64,000 nt of DNA from Pseudomonas sp. NFIX28 (GTDB lineage: Bacteria > Pseudomonadota > Gammaproteobacteria > Pseudomonadales > Pseudomonadaceae), in the NCBI RefSeq assembly GCF_900107395.1, contig NZ_FNPW01000008.1:62001-126000 (forward strand), written 5' to 3'. The position numbers and the translations under genes were made by a program. The notes beneath the pieces are model-generated. The model ran no database searches. It was not told where the DNA came from and saw only the letters and a program-made list of their open reading frames with translations. How positions within the stretch are numbered: the stretch's first letter is position 1; every line of letters begins with the position of its first letter. Shown piece after piece: positions 35,887 through 46,972 of this stretch.

Positions 35887-38835
35887 ATGCAGGTTCAAGA
35901 CAAGGCTCAAAACACTAGCGCACCGTTGAGCGAGCGTTTCACGCTGGTGGTGATGTCCCACAATCGCAAGGCGTTCTTGCGCCGTACCTTGCAGTACTAC
36001 AGCACCTACCCCTGCAAGATCCTGGTGCTGGACTCCTCGCTGCACGCCGACGACAGCCTGGCCGGCCAGTTCCCCCGGGTCGATTACCGGCATCTGCCGC
36101 AATACACCTACAAGGGCCTGCAGGACAAGCTCACCTACGGCGTTGGCCAGGTGACCACGCCGTACATGGTGTTCGCTGCCGACGACGACTTTTTGCTCCA
36201 TGGCGCGCTCACCGAATCGGTGGAGTTTCTTGAAGCCAACCCCGACTACGGCCTGTGCCACGGCTACGGGATGATGTACCTGGCCCGTGCCGCCGAGGTG
36301 AACTACTACAAGCGCGATTGCCGGGTGATCGAGGACTACGCCTCGGAAGACGCCAGCGAGCGGGTCATGGCGTTCATGGGTCATTTCCTGCCGCCGTTCT
36401 ACGCCGTGACCCGCACCGACCTGCTGCAACAGTGGTACAGCCTGCTGCCGCCGGGGACCAGTTTCGAGTGGCAGGAAATCGGCCATACCTTCTTCCTGCT
36501 GGCGTCGGCCAAGGCGCGGATCCTGCCGATTCCCTTCGCCGTGCGCGAGGTCAACTACAACGCCTCGGAGCACAATACCGATGTGCTGACGGTGCTGACC
36601 TACGGCGACGCGAAGTCGGTGGCCCAGCGCGAGGCGTTCGCCGGGTTCCTGGCGTCGTTGCCCACCGGTTTGAGCGGCCTGGACCCGCAGCGGGCCAAAC
36701 AGATTGCCCTGGACAGCTTCACGGCCATGGCCGAGTGCCTGCTCACCGGTCGCTCGCTCAACGGCAAGATGATTTTCCGTTCGGCCTGGCTCGAGCCGGG
36801 GGCCGAGCCGGTGCGTTCGTTCGGCCCGGAACAGTTCGTCGAAATGCCGTTCTACAACAAGCCGATGTTCGATCTGTTGACCGAATTCGAATTCCTCATG
36901 CATGGGATGCCGGCCGGTCGCCTGCAACTGCAGGAGCTTGAAGGCGTGCTGCTCAAGCAGCAGGAGCTGATGCAGGTACAGCCCAACGACACCGAGCGTA
37001 CCCTGCGCAGCCGCCTGTGGGAGGCGCTGTCGTGCAACCTGTTCAACCTCGAAGTGGTCCGCCGCCTGGCGGCCTCGCTGCAGGCTTGCAATGGGCAAGA
37101 TCCCCAGGAGCTGGACGATGCCCGCAAGCTGCAGGCCTGGGCCGAGCGCCTGGAGTCGCTGCCTTTCCAGGACAGCCCGGCGCTGTTGGAAAACATGCCT
37201 TCGGGGCGCCTGCTGAAATGGCTGGAGGCGCGCAACCCCGAGGCGCAGCAGCTCAAGGCGATCAACGAGCACCTGGCGCGGCACAACGGCGGCCCGACCT
37301 TCGGCATCCTGCTGCTCGACCTCGAGGCCGACATGGTCAAGCTGCAGGCGACCTTCGACAGCCTGGTCAATGGCCATTGCCGGTCCTTCCAGGTGGTGGT
37401 CTTCACCACGGGCGACCTGCCGGCGACCACCAGCGCCCAGGACACCGTGCATTTCATCAAGGTCAGCACCGCCAACCATGTGGAGCGGATCAACCAGTTC
37501 GTCGTGCAATCTTCCCGCGACTGGTTGCTGCTGGCCCGTGCCGGCGAGCGTTTCACCGCCAGCGGCCTGCTGCGCGCCAGCCTCGAACTGCTCGGCGCGC
37601 AAGGGTGCCGCGCGGTGGCCATGGATGAACTCCAATACGGTGCCGATGGCGCGCTCAAGGATGTGTTCCGCCCGGGCGTCAACCTCGACCTGCTGCAAAG
37701 CGCGCCGGACCTGATGGCCGGCCACTGGCTGATTCGCCGGGAAGTGCTGGTGGCCGCCGGCGGTTATTCGACGGCGTTTGCCCAAGCCATGGAATACGAC
37801 CTGCTGCTGCGCCTGATCGAAGACGGCGGGCTGGCGGGCCTGGCGCACCTGGCCGAACCGCTGTTGATCGGCCAGGCCGCGACGACGGAGGAGAACCCTC
37901 AGCAAAGCCAGGCGCTGACCCGCCACCTGGGCCAGCGTGGCTATCGCGGCCAGGTCAGCGCGGCGCAGCCTGGGGTCTATCAGGTCAACTACGGCCATGC
38001 CGAACGTCCGCTGGTCTCGATCATCCTGCGCAGCGAAGACAACCTGGAGCAGTTGCAGCGCTGCCTGGTCAGCGTGCTGCAACGCACGCGCTACCAGCGC
38101 TACGAAGTGGTCATCGGCGATAACCACAGCCGCTGCGAAGAACTGGCGAACTGGCTCGCCAGCCTGGAGCAGAAGGGCGACCGCATCCGCGTGGTGCGCA
38201 GTCCGCAACGCCTGAGCGCCTCGGCGCTGTATAACGCAGCGAGCCAGGAAGCCCGGGGCGAGTACCTGGTGCTGCTGGCGGCCGATGCCGAAGTGGTCAA
38301 CGCCGACTGGCTGGAGAGCCTGCTCAACCAGGCGCAGCGGCCGGAAGTCGGGGTGGTCGGCGCGCGCCTGGTCGACGCCAAGGGCGCGACCACCTCGGCT
38401 GGCCTGGTTCTCGGCTTGAACGGGCATCTGGGGGCGGCGTTCGCCGGTGAGCCGAAAGGCGCCAGCGGCTACCTGAATGGCTTGCTCGCCGAACAGAACT
38501 ATTCGGCGGTCTCCGGTGCCTGCCTGATGATTGGCAAGGACGTCTACAACGCCGTCGGCGGCCTGGACGAAGAACACCTCGCCGAGGCATTCGCCGATGT
38601 CGACCTGTGCCTGAAGGTGGCCGATGCCGGGCTGTTGACGGTCTGGACCCCGCAGGTGCAGATCCTCCACCCGGGCACCCTGGCGGACAATGCCCAGGCC
38701 GCGGCGGCGCTGCGCGACAAATGGCAGGCCCGCTTCGAGCACGACGTGGCTTACAACCAGAACCTGAGCCTGACCGGCAAGGGTTTCACCCCTGGCGCTC
38801 CTGCCAGTGTCGACTGGGCACAGCTGCTTGCATAA
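35887..38835 (+). CDS. second multidomain glycosyltransferase of the island
   Basis: The 982-residue protein begins with a TIGR00180-type transferase domain (LVVMSHNRKAFLRRTLQYYS, FAADDDFLLHGAL, NYNASEHNTDVLT; residues about 15-260). After a linker come a degenerate GT2-like module (about 475-680) and a complete C-terminal GT2 domain (PLVSIILRSEDNLEQLQRC, VVGARLVDAKGATTSAG, FADVDLCLKVADAG). The last two modules resemble the middle modules of the 25634-29206 protein, so the two are partly paralogous. It probably builds the flagellin glycan. Confidence 0.83.
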   Translation: MQVQDKAQNTSAPLSERFTLVVMSHNRKAFLRRTLQYYSTYPCKILVLDSSLHADDSLAGQFPRVDYRHLPQYTYKGLQDKLTYGVGQVTTPYMVFAADDDFLLHGALTESVEFLEANPDYGLCHGYGMMYLARAAEVNYYKRDCRVIEDYASEDASERVMAFMGHFLPPFYAVTRTDLLQQWYSLLPPGTSFEWQEIGHTFFLLASAKARILPIPFAVREVNYNASEHNTDVLTVLTYGDAKSVAQREAFAGFLASLPTGLSGLDPQRAKQIALDSFTAMAECLLTGRSLNGKMIFRSAWLEPGAEPVRSFGPEQFVEMPFYNKPMFDLLTEFEFLMHGMPAGRLQLQELEGVLLKQQELMQVQPNDTERTLRSRLWEALSCNLFNLEVVRRLAASLQACNGQDPQELDDARKLQAWAERLESLPFQDSPALLENMPSGRLLKWLEARNPEAQQLKAINEHLARHNGGPTFGILLLDLEADMVKLQATFDSLVNGHCRSFQVVVFTTGDLPATTSAQDTVHFIKVSTANHVERINQFVVQSSRDWLLLARAGERFTASGLLRASLELLGAQGCRAVAMDELQYGADGALKDVFRPGVNLDLLQSAPDLMAGHWLIRREVLVAAGGYSTAFAQAMEYDLLLRLIEDGGLAGLAHLAEPLLIGQAATTEENPQQSQALTRHLGQRGYRGQVSAAQPGVYQVNYGHAERPLVSIILRSEDNLEQLQRCLVSVLQRTRYQRYEVVIGDNHSRCEELANWLASLEQKGDRIRVVRSPQRLSASALYNAASQEARGEYLVLLAADAEVVNADWLESLLNQAQRPEVGVVGARLVDAKGATTSAGLVLGLNGHLGAAFAGEPKGASGYLNGLLAEQNYSAVSGACLMIGKDVYNAVGGLDEEHLAEAFADVDLCLKVADAGLLTVWTPQVQILHPGTLADNAQAAAALRDKWQARFEHDVAYNQNLSLTGKGFTPGAPASVDWAQLLA

Positions 38836-38865
38836 GCCTGGCTGACAGGTAAAAGGACTCAACGC

Positions 38866-39030
38866 ATGTTTAATGGCAAATCGATTTTCATCTCAGGCGG
38901 CACCGGCTCGTTCGGGCGCAATTTCATTCGGCGTCTGCTGGAGCAGTACCAGCCCAAGCGGGGTGCGAGTAATCCGCATTTCCTTTTGCTTGGTCAGGTC
39001 GTCGGGCTGTATACCGAGTCATCGGTATGA
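38866..39030 (+). pseudogene. pseB: pseB remnant with in-frame internal deletion
   Basis: The 54-codon frame starts exactly like PseB, the UDP-GlcNAc 4,6-dehydratase/5-epimerase (MFNGKSIFISGGTGSFGRNF, then IRRLLEQYQPKR). It then jumps to what looks like the family's C-terminal NPHFL motif (GASNPHFLLLGQVVGLY) and stops in an ATGA overlap with pseC. About 280 of about 330 codons are missing, including the catalytic residues, so the product cannot be an active enzyme. The ribosome site (AAAAGGA) and the overlap with pseC remain, so it may still serve translation coupling. Confidence 0.8.
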
Positions 39031-40199
39031 TTCCTTATGCACGCCAGAGTATTGACCAGGCTGATATTGACGCTGTGGTGGCGGTGCTGCAGTCAGATTG
39101 GTTGACTCAGGGGCCGACCATCGAGCGCTTCGAGCAGGCCATGGCCGCCCGCTGTGAGGCCGGTCATGGCGTGGCGGTGTGCAACGCTACGGCAGCTCTG
39201 CACATTGCTTGCCTGGCCGCCGGTCTGGGACCGGGAGACCTGCTGTGGACCACGCCCAACACCTTTCTGGCCTCGGCCAATTGCGGACGCTATTGCGGTG
39301 CCGACGTGGACTTCGTCGATATCGACCCCCATACCTGGAATATGGATGCCCGGGCGCTGGCCGATAAGCTTGAAGCCGCCGAACGTATGGGCCGCTTGCC
39401 TAAAGTGGTGGTGGCTGTTGCGTTTTCTGGGCAAAGCTGCGACATGCGGGCCATGGCGCAACTGGCACAGCGGTATGGCTTTGTGCTGATTGAGGACGCA
39501 GCTCACGCAGTGGGAGCATATTATGCCGGGCGCCCAGTAGGCTGTGGCGAGTTTGCGGCGATGACGATCTTCAGTTTCCATCCGGTGAAAATCATCACTA
39601 GCGCCGAGGGCGGTATGGTGATGACCAACAACCCACAGCTGGCGAACCGTTTGCGGCGTTTGCGTAGCCACGGCATGACCCGTGATCCGGCGCAAATGAC
39701 TGAGCCCAGTCAAAGTTTCTGGTACTACCAGCAGATCGAGTTGGGCTTCAATTACCGGATCACCGACCTGCAGGCTGCGCTGGGGCTATCCCAGCTGGAC
39801 AAGCTCGATGGTTTCCTTGCCAGGCGCCAGCAACTTGCTGCTCGTTATGACCGCTTGCTGGCCGACTTGCCGGTAACCTTGCCGCAGGCTCAAGATCAGG
39901 CACAGTCATCGTGGCATCTGTACGTGGTGCGTCTGCAGTCCAACCGTATCCGTCGCTCTCGCGCTGCAGTGTTCGAGGCGTTGCGTGAGGCTGGGGTTGG
40001 GGTAAACGTGCATTATATTCCGGTACATCTGCAGCCGTATTATCGCGACCTGGGGTTCGCTGCTGGCGATTTTCCCGAGGCTGAGCGTTACTACGCCGAG
40101 GCAATCAGTTTGCCGATGTTTCCTGCGCTGGATGACAAACAGCAGGAGTACGTAGTCGAGCAATTACGCCAGCTTGTTTTGGAGCATGTCGAGTCTTGA
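39027..40199 (+). CDS. pseC: UDP-4-amino-4,6-dideoxy-AltNAc transaminase
   Basis: The 390-residue DegT/DnrJ/EryC1 aminotransferase begins MIPYARQSIDQADIDAVVAVL, as PseC does, and carries the PLP Lys188 in FSFHPVKIITSAEGG. It aminates the PseB product in pseudaminic acid synthesis. The codon use is visibly richer in A/T at third positions than in the upstream and downstream genes. Its substrate would have to come from another PseB, because the adjacent one is deleted. Confidence 0.92.
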   Translation: MIPYARQSIDQADIDAVVAVLQSDWLTQGPTIERFEQAMAARCEAGHGVAVCNATAALHIACLAAGLGPGDLLWTTPNTFLASANCGRYCGADVDFVDIDPHTWNMDARALADKLEAAERMGRLPKVVVAVAFSGQSCDMRAMAQLAQRYGFVLIEDAAHAVGAYYAGRPVGCGEFAAMTIFSFHPVKIITSAEGGMVMTNNPQLANRLRRLRSHGMTRDPAQMTEPSQSFWYYQQIELGFNYRITDLQAALGLSQLDKLDGFLARRQQLAARYDRLLADLPVTLPQAQDQAQSSWHLYVVRLQSNRIRRSRAAVFEALREAGVGVNVHYIPVHLQPYYRDLGFAAGDFPEAERYYAEAISLPMFPALDDKQQEYVVEQLRQLVLEHVES

Positions 40200-40903
40200 G
40201 TGCCATCGCAATCATTCCCGCCCGAGGTGGCAGTAAGCGTATAGCTAGTAAAAACCTCAAACCCTTTAACGGCATACCGATGCTTGCCCGTTCAATTGCC
40301 ACGGCCCGGGCATCGGGGCTATTTGATCAGGTGCTGGTTAGTACCGACGATCCGGAAATCGCCAAGTTGGCCAAGGCTTGTGGCGCGACAGTACCATTTA
40401 CACGTCCGGCAGAGCTGGCGAATGATTTCATCGGCACAGCGCCTGTGATCGTGCATGCCTTGAATGTACTGCAGGAGCGTGGCGAAGTATTCGATTACGC
40501 CTGCTGCATCTACGCCACTGCTCCCTTGTTGCAGGCACGTTACTTGCGGCAAGGCTTCGTGGCGCTGGATACTCATCCAGGAAAATCATTTGCCTTTTCT
40601 ATCTGTAGCTTTCCTTTCCCTGTGCAGCGGGCCCTAGTCTTCGACGAGCAGGGCTCATTAACGGCGCTCCATCCAGAATTTAGCGGTACCCGCTCCCAGG
40701 ACCTGCCGCCGGCCTATCAGGACGCCGGGCAGTTCTATTGGGGGCGCAGCGAGGCCTGGTTGCGCGGCGACCTGATGTTTTCTCCCCTCAGCCTGCCGGT
40801 GATCCTGCCACGCCATCTGGTCCAGGACATCGACACCGAAGAAGATTGGCTGCGTGCGCAATATCTCTACAGGGCACTTAAGGCCGGTGGAGAGCTGGAG
40901 TGA
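40196..40903 (+). CDS. pseF: pseudaminic acid cytidylyltransferase
   Basis: The 235-residue protein has the CMP-sugar synthetase start (AIAIIPARGGSKRIASKNLKPF), and the pattern STDDPEIAKLA and CIYATAPLLQA. It activates pseudaminic acid to CMP-Pse. The only in-frame start is a TTG at 40196 overlapping the pseC stop (TTGA). The first two thirds share the A/T-rich codon use of pseC; from about 40,680 on the codons are GC-rich again. Confidence 0.92.
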   Translation: MSAIAIIPARGGSKRIASKNLKPFNGIPMLARSIATARASGLFDQVLVSTDDPEIAKLAKACGATVPFTRPAELANDFIGTAPVIVHALNVLQERGEVFDYACCIYATAPLLQARYLRQGFVALDTHPGKSFAFSICSFPFPVQRALVFDEQGSLTALHPEFSGTRSQDLPPAYQDAGQFYWGRSEAWLRGDLMFSPLSLPVILPRHLVQDIDTEEDWLRAQYLYRALKAGGELE

Positions 40904-42033
40904 GGGTGCTGATCCGGGCCGATGCCTCGCCGGCCATTGGCAGCGGCCATATCGCCCGTTGCCTGACCCTGGCCAGGGCGTTGAGCGAGCAGGGCGCCAC
41001 CGTGGCTTTCGCTTGCCGAAGCCTGCCCGGGCAGCCATTGGATCGCCTGGTCGAACTGGGTTTCCAGACCTTCGCCCTGCCGGCGAGTTATCCAGGCGAG
41101 TGCGCAGGGGACATCGAGGCGCCGCTGCCCTGGCAGGCGGATATCGCCGCCTTGCAGGTAGCGTTGCAGGAGCAGCCGCGATTCGACTGGGTGCTGGTCG
41201 ACCATTACGGCCTCGACTGGCAATGGCAGCAGGCGGCGCGGCAATGGGCGCCGCGGATTGCCGCCATCGATGACCTGGCCAACCGGCGACATGCGGCCGA
41301 CCTGTTGCTCGACCAGAACTTCAGTGGCACGCCGCAGGCCTATGCCGGCCTGATCAAGGCGGATTGCCGGGCGTTGCTGGGGCCGCATTTCGCCCTGCTG
41401 CGCGAGGAGTTCCGCCGCCCGCCGATTGCCATTCGCGAGCAGGCGCGCCGGGTCCTGGTGAATTTCGGTGGTTTCGATGCCGCCAGCCAGACGTACAAAG
41501 CGATGCAGGCGTTGAGCGCTTTCGACGCGCTGCAAGTGGATTTCGTCGCCGGGGCCGACAACCCGGCCTGGGCGCAGATGCAGGAACTGGCCGCCGCTCG
41601 CGAACACTGGCGCTTGCAGGCTTATGTCAGCGATTTTTCTCGCTTGATGAGCGAAGCGGACCTGTTTATCGGTGCCGGTGGCGGCACCAGCTGGGAACGC
41701 GCCGCGCTGGGCCTGCCGACCCTGTGCATCAGCGTGGCCGGCAACCAGGAGGCCAACGCCCGGCTGTTGGCCGAGGCGGGCATGCATGTCTACCTGGGGC
41801 CCAGCGAGCAGGTGAGCGTCGAGCAACTACGCCAGGCAGTCGCGGCGCTGATGGGCGATTACCCGCTGCGCCGGAGCCTGGCGCAGCGCTCCCGGCAGTT
41901 GGTCGACGGGCAGGGCGCATCGCGGGTGGCGGCAGCCCTGTTGGAGATGACCGGCAACCCATTACGCCGCGCCGGTGATGCACCGGCCCCCGGCGAATTT
42001 ACGCGTGAATCGAAGGAAACCCCCAATGACTAG
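40900..42033 (+). CDS. pseG: UDP-2,4-diacetamido-2,4,6-trideoxy-altropyranose hydrolase
   Basis: The 377-residue GT-B fold protein starts VLIRADASPAIGSGHIARCLTLA and has the GGGTSWERAALGLP nucleotide-binding region, as PseG does. It removes UDP from the pseudaminic acid precursor. It starts at a GTG overlapping the pseF stop. The C-terminus runs into the pseI start and is 10-20 residues longer than usual. Confidence 0.9.
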   Translation: MRVLIRADASPAIGSGHIARCLTLARALSEQGATVAFACRSLPGQPLDRLVELGFQTFALPASYPGECAGDIEAPLPWQADIAALQVALQEQPRFDWVLVDHYGLDWQWQQAARQWAPRIAAIDDLANRRHAADLLLDQNFSGTPQAYAGLIKADCRALLGPHFALLREEFRRPPIAIREQARRVLVNFGGFDAASQTYKAMQALSAFDALQVDFVAGADNPAWAQMQELAAAREHWRLQAYVSDFSRLMSEADLFIGAGGGTSWERAALGLPTLCISVAGNQEANARLLAEAGMHVYLGPSEQVSVEQLRQAVAALMGDYPLRRSLAQRSRQLVDGQGASRVAAALLEMTGNPLRRAGDAPAPGEFTRESKETPND

Positions 42034-43078
42034 TTTCAAGATCGGCTCGCGCTCGATTGGCGCAGGCTCGCCGCCGTTCATCATTGCCGAGATGAGCGGC
42101 AACCATAACCAGTCGCTGGACGTTGCCCTGCAAATCGTCGAAGCCGCGGCCAAGGCCGGCGCCCATGCCTTGAAGTTGCAGACTTATACCGCCGACACCA
42201 TGACCCTGGACCTGGACCACGGCGAGTTCTTCATCAAGGATCCGGCCAGCCTGTGGGCCGGCTCTTCACTGTATGCCCTGTATGAAAAGGCCCATACGCC
42301 CTGGCAGTGGCACGCGCCGATCTTCGCCCGTGCCAGGGAATTGGGAATGCTGGCGTTCTCCACGCCGTTCGACGAGAGCGCCGTGGACTTTCTCGAAAGC
42401 CTCGATGTGCCGGCCTACAAGATCGCCAGTTTCGAAAACACCGACCTGCCGCTGATTCGCCGGGTGGCGGCCACCGGCAAGCCGCTGATCATTTCCACCG
42501 GCATGGCCAGCATCGCCGAGCTGGACGAAAGCGTGCGCGCGGCCCGCGAGGCCGGCTGCAAGGACCTGGTGCTGCTCAAGTGCACCAGCACCTACCCGGC
42601 CTCGCCGGAAAACAGCAACATCCTGACCATCCCCCATCTGCGTGAACTGTTCGGCTGCGAAGTCGGTTTGTCCGATCATTCCATGGGCGTCGGGGTATCG
42701 GTGGCCGCGGTGGCGCTGGGCGCGACGGTGGTGGAAAAACACTTCACCCTCGACCGCGCCGCCGGCGGGGTGGATGCGAGTTTTTCCCTGGAGCCGGCGG
42801 AGCTGCACAGCCTGGTGGTGGAAACCGAGCGCGCCTGGCAGGCCCTGGGCCAGGTGCGATACGGCGCGACCGAGGCCGAGCGGCAGTCGGTGCTGTACCG
42901 CCGCTCCCTCTACGTCACCCGTGACATGGCGGCGGGAGAGGTGTTCAGTTGCGAGAATGTCAGGGCCATTCGTCCGGGTCTGGGGCTTGCCCCCAAGCAC
43001 ATCGACGCAGTCCTCGGGCGCTGCGCGCGCCAGGCCCTCAAGCGTGGTACCGCACTGGATTGGGCGTTTGTCGAATAG
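42026..43078 (+). CDS. pseI: pseudaminic acid synthase
   Basis: The 350-residue protein has the NeuB/PseI barrel (PFIIAEMSGNHNQSLDVALQIVEAA, LKLQTYTADTMTLD) and a C-terminal SAF antifreeze-like domain (RRSLYVTRDMAAGEVFSCENVRAIRPGLGL). The EMSGNHN form favours PseI over NeuB. It condenses phosphoenolpyruvate with the six-carbon precursor. The ATG at 42026 has an AAGGAAA site and overlaps pseG by eight bases. No pseH acetyltransferase gene is adjacent. Confidence 0.92.
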   Translation: MTSFKIGSRSIGAGSPPFIIAEMSGNHNQSLDVALQIVEAAAKAGAHALKLQTYTADTMTLDLDHGEFFIKDPASLWAGSSLYALYEKAHTPWQWHAPIFARARELGMLAFSTPFDESAVDFLESLDVPAYKIASFENTDLPLIRRVAATGKPLIISTGMASIAELDESVRAAREAGCKDLVLLKCTSTYPASPENSNILTIPHLRELFGCEVGLSDHSMGVGVSVAAVALGATVVEKHFTLDRAAGGVDASFSLEPAELHSLVVETERAWQALGQVRYGATEAERQSVLYRRSLYVTRDMAAGEVFSCENVRAIRPGLGLAPKHIDAVLGRCARQALKRGTALDWAFVE

Positions 43079-44245: not shown

Positions 44246-44289
44246 CAAAATAGCGCTCAGGGTGTAGTACCCTGAGCGCTATTTTTTTT
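44246..44289 (+). terminator. rho-independent terminator after KAS III-like gene
   Basis: AAATAGCGCTCAGGGT pairs with ACCCTGAGCGCTATTT around GTAGT, followed by a T-run. Confidence 0.95.
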
Positions 44290-44311
44290 GCATGAAGATA
44301 GGCGAGGCAGC

Positions 44312-45604
44312 ATGAGCGACAGCTTTGAGGGCAATGCCCAGGCAATACGGGCTCGCTGGCCGCGACTGCTCGAGCGGTTGCTGGCGGAGGACAGTGCTGC
44401 GTTGCAGGCGGATCTGGTCGAAGGCCTGGGTTCGACCTTGAGTATTTCCGGCATCCAGCTCACCAGCCGTCATGATCGCGCGGCGGAGGCGCGGACCCAG
44501 GCGGCAAGCCTGCCGGCCGACAGTCCGGTGATCCATCTGTATGGCACCGGCTTGGGCGACTTGCAGCATGTGCTGCTGAAAAATCCCGCGCTGCAACGCT
44601 TGCATGTGCACATCCTCAACGGCGCGGTCTTTGCGCTGGTGCTGCAATTGCTCGATCAGCAAGACTGGTTGAACGATCCTCGAGTCGAGCTGGGGTTTGC
44701 CGGCGACCTGGCGGAAATCCAGTTGCCATTTTTCGCCTTGCCCTCCGAGCTGGTGCTGGCGGATGACTACAACGCCAAGATCCGTGATCGCCTGGTCAGT
44801 GAAGTGCACCTGGCTTTCAATAACCGGGATTTCGTCGCCGATTCCCCGGAAGTCGCCCAGCGCCTGCAATCGAGTGCCGGGCTGGTGGCCAGCGACAACG
44901 ATGTGGCGCAACTGTTCGGCACCCAGCCAGCAAGCGAAGTCTTCGTGATCGCCACCGGGCCGAGCCTGGAGCGGCATTTCGAGCGTTTGCGCGAAATTCG
45001 CGCGCACAGCCAGCGTCCTCTGTTTATCTGTGTCGATACCGCCTACCGGCCATTGCGCAAGCAAGGGATCGAGCCGGATATCGTGATCAGCATCGATCAC
45101 CGGATTTCCAGCCTGCACTTGCCCCCTGAAGATTCCGCAGCCATTACCCTGGTCTATCTGCCGATGGTCGATCCGCAGATCCTGGCGCTCTGGCAGGGGC
45201 CGCGTTACGTCGGTTATTCCGCCAGCCCGATTTACACACAGATGCGCGAACGGCTGCCCAAGGCGCAGCTGTATGTCGGCGGCAGTGTGATTCATCCAGC
45301 GGTGGACCTGGCGGTGAAAATGGGCGCCGGGCAGGTCACCTTGTTCGGTGCCGACTTCGCCTTCCCGATGAACAAGACTCATGCCGGCTGGCTCGACGGT
45401 GAGCTCGGGCCGCAACTGGGAGCGGCCCGGCACTGGGTGCTGGACGGCCATGGCCAGCGGGTCAGGACGCAACTCAATTTCCGCAGCTACCTGTGCGAGC
45501 TGGAGCGTTTTATCGCCGGTCATCCGCAGGTGCGCTTCTATAACAGCAGCCGGGACGGAGCGATGATTGCCGGGACGACTTACCATCCGGAGTTCAGCCA
45601 ATGA
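44312..45604 (+). CDS. Maf-type motility-associated glycosyltransferase (DUF115)
   Basis: The 430-residue protein carries the DUF115/MptE-like core: VIATGPSLERHFERLRE, PLFICVDTAYRPLRKQGIEPDIVISID, and FGADFAFPMNKTHAGW. In Campylobacter, Aeromonas and Helicobacter, Maf proteins transfer nonulosonic acids such as pseudaminic acid onto flagellin. It is therefore the likely transferase partner of the pse genes. I chose the ATG at 44312 (GGCGAGG site) over one at 44288 inside the preceding terminator. Confidence 0.85.
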   Translation: MSDSFEGNAQAIRARWPRLLERLLAEDSAALQADLVEGLGSTLSISGIQLTSRHDRAAEARTQAASLPADSPVIHLYGTGLGDLQHVLLKNPALQRLHVHILNGAVFALVLQLLDQQDWLNDPRVELGFAGDLAEIQLPFFALPSELVLADDYNAKIRDRLVSEVHLAFNNRDFVADSPEVAQRLQSSAGLVASDNDVAQLFGTQPASEVFVIATGPSLERHFERLREIRAHSQRPLFICVDTAYRPLRKQGIEPDIVISIDHRISSLHLPPEDSAAITLVYLPMVDPQILALWQGPRYVGYSASPIYTQMRERLPKAQLYVGGSVIHPAVDLAVKMGAGQVTLFGADFAFPMNKTHAGWLDGELGPQLGAARHWVLDGHGQRVRTQLNFRSYLCELERFIAGHPQVRFYNSSRDGAMIAGTTYHPEFSQ

Positions 45605-46120: not shown

Positions 46121-46972
46121 ATGGCTTTAACAGTAAACACTAACGTCACATCGTTGAACGTTCAGAAGAACCTGAACCGCGCTTCCGACGCTCTGTCGAC
46201 TTCGATGACTCGCCTGTCTTCCGGCCTGAAAATCAACAGCGCAAAGGACGACGCCGCCGGCCTGCAAATCGCTACCCGCATGACTTCGCAGATCCGTGGT
46301 CAGACCATGGCGATCAAAAACGCCAACGACGGTATCTCCATCGCTCAGACCGCTGAAGGCGCGATGCAGGAATCCACCAACATCCTGCAACGTATGCGCG
46401 AACTGGCTATTCAATCGCGAAACGACTCCAACGGTACCGCTGACCGTGTTGCACTGAACAAAGAATTCGCTTCGATGTCGGACGAGCTGACTCGTATCGC
46501 CAAGTCGACCAACCTGAACGGCAAGAACCTGATCGACGGCAGTGCTGGCACCATGACCTTCCAGGTCGGTTCCAATACCGGTGCTACCAACCAGATCACC
46601 ATCACTCTGGCCAGCGGCTTCGACGCTGCAACCCTGAGCGTAGGTTCTGCAACCATCGCCATCACCGGTAACAGCAGCGCCACCGCCGAAGCCAGCACCA
46701 AGGCTTCGATCGACGCAATCGAAAAGGCCCTGGCAACCATCAACTCCAGCCGTGCTGACCTCGGTGCTGCACAAAACCGTCTGACCAGCACCATTTCCAA
46801 CCTGCAGAACATCAACGAAAACGCCAGTGCTGCACTGGGTCGCGTACAAGATACCGACTTCGCTGCTGAAACTGCGCAGATGACCAAGCAGCAGACTCTG
46901 CAACAAGCTTCCACCGCAGTTCTGGCTCAGGCCAACCAACTGCCGTCCGCTGTACTGAAACTGCTTCAGTAA
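46121..46972 (+). CDS. fliC: flagellin FliC
   Basis: The 283-residue filament protein begins MALTVNTNVTSLNVQKNLNR and has conserved D0/D1 helices at both ends (TRLSSGLKINSAKDDAAGLQ; the C-terminal helix ends ANQLPSAVLKLLQ). The central variable region (about 145-200) is very short and rich in Ser, Thr and Ala, giving candidate O-glycosylation sites for the upstream island. It has an AACGAGGAA ribosome site. flaG follows. Confidence 0.98.
   Translation: MALTVNTNVTSLNVQKNLNRASDALSTSMTRLSSGLKINSAKDDAAGLQIATRMTSQIRGQTMAIKNANDGISIAQTAEGAMQESTNILQRMRELAIQSRNDSNGTADRVALNKEFASMSDELTRIAKSTNLNGKNLIDGSAGTMTFQVGSNTGATNQITITLASGFDAATLSVGSATIAITGNSSATAEASTKASIDAIEKALATINSSRADLGAAQNRLTSTISNLQNINENASAALGRVQDTDFAAETAQMTKQQTLQQASTAVLAQANQLPSAVLKLLQ

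Follow-up and report, generated by a model that had tools for sequence, protein, structure and literature searches.

An in-frame pseB remnant in Pseudomonas sp. NFIX28 and the recurrent reduction of pseB in genomes carrying a WbjB/FnlA-type dehydratase

Introduction

The pseudaminic acid locus of Pseudomonas sp. NFIX28 raises the question of how a pse operon can be kept when its first gene, pseB, has lost most of its codons, and of what may stand in for the missing enzyme. The window, by which we mean the whole stretch of 64,000 nucleotides analysed here, covers positions 62001-126000 of contig 24 in a genome of 6.73 Mb and 42 contigs (G000). All features described below lie on its + strand. 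The operon comprises pseC, encoding the UDP-4-amino-4,6-dideoxy-N-acetyl-beta-L-altrosamine transaminase (39027..40199; TIGR03588, 568.4 bits, cut-off 423.5), the pseudaminic acid cytidylyltransferase gene pseF (40196..40903; TIGR03584, 314 bits, cut-off 205.7), the UDP-sugar hydrolase gene pseG in a short form of 377 aa (40900..42033; TIGR03590, 307.1 bits, cut-off 153.55), and the pseudaminic acid synthase gene pseI (42026..43078; TIGR03586, 495.4 bits, cut-off 340.25), whose start was set at the ATG where the TIGR03586 match begins. All four of these genes, which a preliminary description of the locus had called intact, score over the cut-offs of their NCBIfam models. Further downstream are a gene for an MptE-like (Maf-type) protein (44288..45604; PF01973, 112.4 bits), a candidate flagellin glycosyltransferase, a role that we assume from the Maf type, and a flagellin gene (46121..46972; PF00669 and PF00700).

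Two known situations serve as references for what follows. Non-orthologous gene displacement, or enzyme sharing, is marked by two enzymes for the same step that occur in complementary sets of genomes. Translational coupling through leader ORFs is marked by a Shine-Dalgarno (SD) sequence and a start upstream, an overlapping stop and start (ATGA), and a downstream gene without an SD of its own.

Results

The gene before pseC is pseB reduced in frame to its two ends

Directly before pseC lies an ORF of 54 codons (38866-39030), which is pseB reduced in frame to its two ends. It is preceded by the SD-like AAGGA of the former gene, read from the sequence (38853..38857). Codons 1-32 (38866..38961) match positions 1-32 of the PseB family model TIGR03589 with 39.5 bits, well under the cut-off of 407.75. 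They are followed by nine bases at the join (38962..38970), without clear source in the alignment to G360, the nearest intact locus, and by a 3' remnant of about 19 codons with the TGA stop (38971..39030). The final 22 residues of the stub (NPHFLLLGQVVGLYTESSV) align with residues 311-332 of a relative's 333-aa PseB (NPHFLSVGQIADLHAELSA) at 50% identity. The stop shares the ATGA at 39027..39030 with the pseC start, an overlap of pseB and pseC that is found in 91 of 91 intact loci. As the PseB of relatives is typically 333 aa long and ends in the same overlap, 279 of 333 codons are missing net from the stub. An in-frame loss of about 280 internal codons, sparing the first 32 residues, a C-terminal motif and the ATGA overlap, had been proposed in the preliminary description, and the alignments bear it out.

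The stub thus retains from PseB the start, the first 32 codons, the last codons, the place before pseC and the ATGA overlap, while the body holding the catalytic residues is gone: the motif T-x9-Y-x3-K (125, 135 and 139 in G360 PseB numbering) falls within the missing part. We also considered a second true PseB elsewhere in G000 and rejected it, as none of the eight PseB-model matches in the genome, one of which is the stub itself, scored over the cut-off. The best of these matches was a 344-aa WbjB/FnlA-type protein encoded on contig 30.

In the alignment to G360, similarity on the 5' side extends up to 38961 and begins again at 38971; no short direct repeat explaining the join was seen there by eye, and a search for a plasmid-borne copy of the join gave no match. 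By eye, pseB of G360 (L138) carries CAAGCGGGTGG twice in the same frame, at codon 31 and 648 bases further on, a repetition that could favour in-frame deletions and that alone does not give the join of the window. As a separate observation, bases 38978-39008 of the stub have 29-base, 90% matches elsewhere in more than 10 genomes of the genus (E about 1e-3), perhaps through chance likeness to a conserved gene.

The length of pseG also varies among the loci. The 377-aa form is shared by the window and G360. Among 79 loci where pseG was matched, 20 have short forms of 341-377 aa, and the other 59 encode proteins of 476-502 aa. In six of the eight genomes inspected, the pse locus has an ORF of 514-608 aa that contains a weak PseH-like match, one of these ORFs having an internal stop; PseG and PseH may therefore be fused in the long form. 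Separate PseH-model matches over the cut-off are present elsewhere in G000 (contig 9, 140 bits) and in G360, and also in G325, where such a match exists besides the fusion.

A possible origin of the window's own stub

Compared with G360, synonymous divergence (dS) was 0.38 in the gene upstream and 0.45 in pseB codons 1-32, reached 1.03 in pseC and 1.06 in pseF, and returned to 0.57 in pseG and 0.45 in pseI. The pseC-pseF segment (39027-40903) therefore shows about twice the synonymous divergence of its flanks. Its GC3 is also lower (0.66 in pseC and 0.62 in pseF, against 0.83 in pseC of G360), and identity to G360 drops from about 0.9 to about 0.8 near 38960. The 32 retained pseB codons differ from those of G360 by 1 nonsynonymous and 8 synonymous changes. 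These features are consistent with the import, by recombination, of a pseC-pseF segment without pseB from a relative outside the sample, the crossover lying near codon 32 of the resident pseB, and such a segment would explain why the 5' part of the stub is still PseB-like and its 3' part half changed. Against import, no donor was found, G000 still joins G360 in the pseC tree, and relaxed codon bias could also raise dS; we consider the arguments for and against to be evenly balanced. This reading concerns the origin of the stub only and is compatible with the explanation that we prefer below. The suggestion that the deletion was a very recent event was not supported, considering both the divergence of pseC-pseF and the mere 50% identity of the C-terminal remnant to PseB.

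Reduction of pseB is recurrent in the genus

We then examined the stretch upstream of pseC in 115 genomes, selected from 398 Pseudomonas genomes searched because their PseC is at least 68% identical. A full pseB precedes pseC in 91 of the 115 and is reduced or gone in 24. Two further reduced loci came from a second collection (L054, and L056 from Pseudomonas koreensis DSM 16610), bringing the total to 26. In-frame stubs that begin at the pseB start range from 21 codons (G211) to 103 codons (G399). On a pseC tree of 117 rows, of which 24 are based on 585-669 bases of pseC only, the state of pseB requires 12 changes, and well-supported branches force 10 of these. Reduction of pseB is therefore recurrent and not an oddity of one strain.

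Five clusters (G025, G177, G187, G259 and G262) have pseC, pseF, pseG and pseI together with pseB absent, and no stub before pseC was seen in them by eye. In these clusters, wbjB lies about 8-10 kb away in three cases and 18-19 kb away in two, and we take them to be O-antigen clusters.

A WbjB/FnlA-type enzyme accompanies the loss of pseB

The preliminary description had called the first pathway enzyme missing. The reading that no enzyme takes this step is not supported, as G000 carries the WbjB/FnlA-type enzyme mentioned above and every reduced locus examined belongs to a genome with such an enzyme or, in a single case, with a second PseB. On contig 30, the 344-aa protein is encoded in the O-antigen locus, with genes for a WbjC-type reductase and a wecB-like epimerase after it. 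It matches the FnlA model over positions 1-337 of 337 with 680.2 bits, under the cut-off of 730, and its best PDB relative is 4j2o, a UDP-GlcNAc 4,6-dehydratase/5-epimerase (611 bits). The adjoining WbjC scores 680.6 bits with NF047837 (cut-off 500), a model whose name describes a reductase of the PseB/WbjB product. In an alignment of PseB, two WbjB types and WbpM, the contig 30 enzyme contains the catalytic motif T-x9-M/Y-x3-K, in the form given in the consulted part of PMC7439481, with Met where PseB has Tyr. According to the same part of PMC7439481, CapE, WbjB and PseB all perform the 4,6-dehydration and C5 epimerisation of UDP-GlcNAc and yield the same product. The WbjB/FnlA/CapE enzymes of O-antigen and capsule pathways, one of which stands beside wbjC in G000, are thus reported to share their intermediate with PseB, whereas they belong to another pathway and are about 40% identical to PseB.

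Two types of candidate substitute were distinguished. Type 1 is 87-94% identical to the WbjB of the window's genome and has wbjC alongside, which is the L-FucNAc arrangement. Type 2 is about 70% identical to it, has no wbjC match in the fetched stretch and, in the two examples annotated (L255 and L273), is flanked by rmlD-like and wecB-like genes and scores 562-565 bits with the FnlA model. We take this second arrangement to resemble that of L-QuiNAc. Since the scores of both (680 and 562-565 bits) fall under the FnlA cut-off of 730, the products of these enzymes are putative. WbpM was also considered as a substitute and rejected: a further match in the WbpM score range (152-178 bits) is present in 115 of 115 genomes whatever the state of pseB, and cannot therefore explain the pattern.

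The distribution of the WbjB/FnlA type across the genus was complementary to that of PseB. PseC was called in 142 of the 398 Pseudomonas genomes (E up to 1e-110), and PseB scored over the cut-off in 114 of them; this set includes 27 more distant pseC genomes that were counted only here, 22 with PseB and 5 without. A WbjB/FnlA-type enzyme is present in 28 of the 28 pseC genomes without PseB over the cut-off and in 2 of the 114 with it (Fisher p of about 1e-27, kinship ignored). A match of this type is also present in at least 83 of the 256 genomes that lack pseC. As the 398-genome scan scored five candidates per genome, the WbjB counts in the genomes without pseC and in the distant pseC genomes are lower bounds, while all candidates were scored in the 115 close genomes. 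There, 23 of the 24 reduced loci are in genomes with the WbjB/FnlA type, the sole exception being G268, whose second pse operon encodes a full PseB; the combination of an intact pseB and a WbjB/FnlA-type enzyme occurs in only 2 of 91 genomes (G006 and G334). L054 and L056, examined once the hypothesis had been formed, were WbjB-type genomes without full PseB, as predicted.

We also asked whether this link could reflect ancestry or O-serotype linkage only, with PseC using another substrate such as the WbpM product. Reduced loci are indeed clustered on the pseC tree (12 changes against 23.7 in shuffles), and a WbpM-range match is available in every one of the 115 genomes. However, this match is equally present with intact pseB, and pairing on the tree gave 10 independent pairs in which the dehydratase differed the same way 9.6 times on average and the opposite way never (median p 0.002). 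That the one exception, G268, has a second PseB also argues against mere linkage. Moreover, the pattern recurs outside the genus. Of 369 genomes, 47 were over the PseC cut-off including the window's own; the other 46, all Gammaproteobacteria, were tested, and G468, just under the cut-off, was left out. PseB is present in 43 of the 46, and the three without it (G547, G669 and G678) each have a match of 306-308 bits, in the FnlA range, while 2 of the 43 with PseB carry an additional weaker match of 276-285 bits. We consequently judge ancestry or linkage alone to be an improbable explanation, in favour of pseB having been made dispensable by the enzyme of the other pathway.

The genes downstream of reduced pseB are mostly maintained

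A different possibility is that the pseudaminic acid pathway is decaying, pseB having gone first and the other genes being about to follow. Several loci could be read in this sense. In G071 (L205), pseG and pseI are missing between pseF and a ketoacyl-ACP-synthase-like gene. G159 (L179) and G301 (L202) have altered downstream genes, with a divergent pseI (53-55% identical) and pseF (46-49%) and no pseG match downstream of pseC; the same divergent pseI and pseF without a pseG match occur in G128 (L141), where pseB is intact, and this operon variant is perhaps for a different nonulosonic acid. The odd synonymous divergence of pseC-pseF in the window's genome could also be counted here. On the contrary, pseG and pseI matches stand behind pseC in 23 of the 26 reduced loci, and pseC is under purifying selection at reduced loci: dN/dS was 0.04-0.08 in nine reduced-locus pairs and 0.03-0.10 in nine intact pairs, all hand-picked as near neighbours on the pseC tree, so that it is as low as at intact loci even after synonymous divergence of up to 0.9. 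Decay would also not predict WbjB in all 28 PseB-less pseC genomes, and we find it unlikely, slightly more so than ancestry or linkage.

The frame into pseC is mostly kept, and in a group of old stubs the peptide drifts

Selection for translation of the downstream genes, at which the preliminary description had hinted, finds support across the relatives. At intact loci, an SD core precedes 85 of 91 pseB starts and only 13 of 91 pseC starts, near the background of 10%. Considering also the ATGA overlap, pseC appears to depend on ribosomes finishing pseB. Reduced loci are similar, as an SD core is found at 4 of 25 pseC starts, the pseC of the window being among those without. If pseC mostly has no ribosome-binding site and depends on the translation of pseB, this would explain why an ORF from the pseB start runs in frame to the ATGA in 22 of the 26 reduced loci. 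An SD-like core is present in 20 of the 22, and where erosion is strongest the start is assigned to pseB by its position only. The stub of the window has the SD and start upstream and a stop overlapping the pseC start, as coupling leader ORFs do, and from these signals it is predicted to be translated and to couple to pseC.

The four remaining loci differ among themselves. In G319 (L209), the 5' remnant of pseB shares one frame with pseC and no stop separates the two, possibly giving an N-terminal extension of PseC. G130 and G332 retain only a C-terminal PseB remnant, in the frame of pseC, and a 38-codon ORF of another frame ends in the overlap, which was excluded from the 22 of 26. In G328, the ORF from the pseB start stops after 20 codons. 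When the reduced loci were grouped into hand-drawn lineages, 10 of 13 were in frame (binomial 0.0016), a rough value because the tree itself needs only 10-12 changes and not 13 lineages.

Nine old stubs of one group were all in frame, with 24-25 codons. Ungapped pairwise comparison of the seven with 25 codons gave 226:226:231 differences by codon position, or 0.45 per site, while pseC in the same comparison showed 0.13, 0.09 and 0.45; the old stubs thus change at the rate of pseC third positions. This suggests that in the old stubs the peptide is free and the frame is kept. It is a result for the relatives and not for the stub of the window, whose 5' codons are still PseB-like. With shuffled stub bases, the probability that all nine are open is 8e-5 as a product if they are independent, and 0.0016 for six deep lineages, meaning that nine neutral stubs with open ORFs are unlikely but possible by chance.

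Could the stub instead encode a short functional peptide, for example a regulator? An ORF kept open for long in many lineages would agree with this, and the equal divergence of the seven old stubs at the three codon positions, as fast as pseC third positions, together with translations across lineages that look unrelated by eye, makes it very unlikely. A conserved RNA element as the role of the stub was also rejected, as no Rfam match was found in 38700-39200 and the seven equal-length old stubs differ by 0.45 per site at every codon position. Finally, an assembly or sequencing error is most improbable as the source of the stub: the join is clean, the C-terminal remnant has diverged, and 26 assemblies drawn from two collections show reduced loci of several kinds.

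Discussion

Taken together, we consider it likely that an enzyme of another pathway made pseB dispensable and that the gene then eroded until only a translational coupler was left. In the mechanism that we propose, WbjC, the reductase of the O-antigen pathway, would use the WbjB intermediate, and PseC would probably draw the same intermediate from a shared pool. Because the product reported for WbjB is also that of PseB, one pool could feed both branches; in this strain, the gene content suggests that WbjB makes the PseB product and feeds PseC. If the O-antigen dehydratase feeds both pathways, pseB would for that reason be dispensable, and flagellin could still receive a pseudaminic-type sugar without PseB. 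As there is mostly no ribosome-binding site before pseC, whose start codon overlaps the pseB stop, pseB deletions would survive mainly when they keep the SD, the start, the frame and the overlapping stop. In old lineages, the stub peptide would then drift freely at 24-25 codons with the frame kept.

A broader proposition is, in our opinion, somewhat favoured by the data, with less confidence than the explanation above: acquisition of an O-antigen with a 5-inverting UDP-GlcNAc dehydratase would make the flagellar pseB redundant, and erosion of pseB would repeatedly leave a coupling stub of about 25 codons in which the frame is locked and the peptide does not matter, so that the O-antigen type decides which first enzyme is kept. 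If this is true, two major surface antigens depend on a single enzyme and a single pool of intermediate, and a strain of this kind could lose its flagellar glycan on changing its O-antigen.

The pattern departs in some respects from the known situations that it resembles. In contrast to other cases of non-orthologous displacement, the displacing enzyme here still serves its original pathway and is encoded at another site in the genome, and what is left of the displaced gene is a stub that is maintained. The pseB stubs share with coupling leader ORFs the SD and start upstream, the overlapping stop and a downstream gene, pseC, without SD, whereas the leader here is an eroded enzyme gene, made repeatedly by in-frame deletions. 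The consulted portion of the open-licence PMC literature gave no description of a shared dehydratase or of pseB loss in Pseudomonas, which is weak evidence of absence, and the consulted part of a Clostridium paper (PMC13317340) described no pseB-less operons.

These loci offer numerous natural repeats in which one pathway would have ceded its first step to the enzyme of another, the old gene surviving only as a path for ribosomes. The stubs are also a natural system for measuring what coupling needs, as start, frame, length and stop appear to be kept. Genomes without pseB should not be called unable to make pseudaminic acid. Moreover, the predicted metabolic link between O-antigen and flagellin glycan implies that the two may not switch independently.
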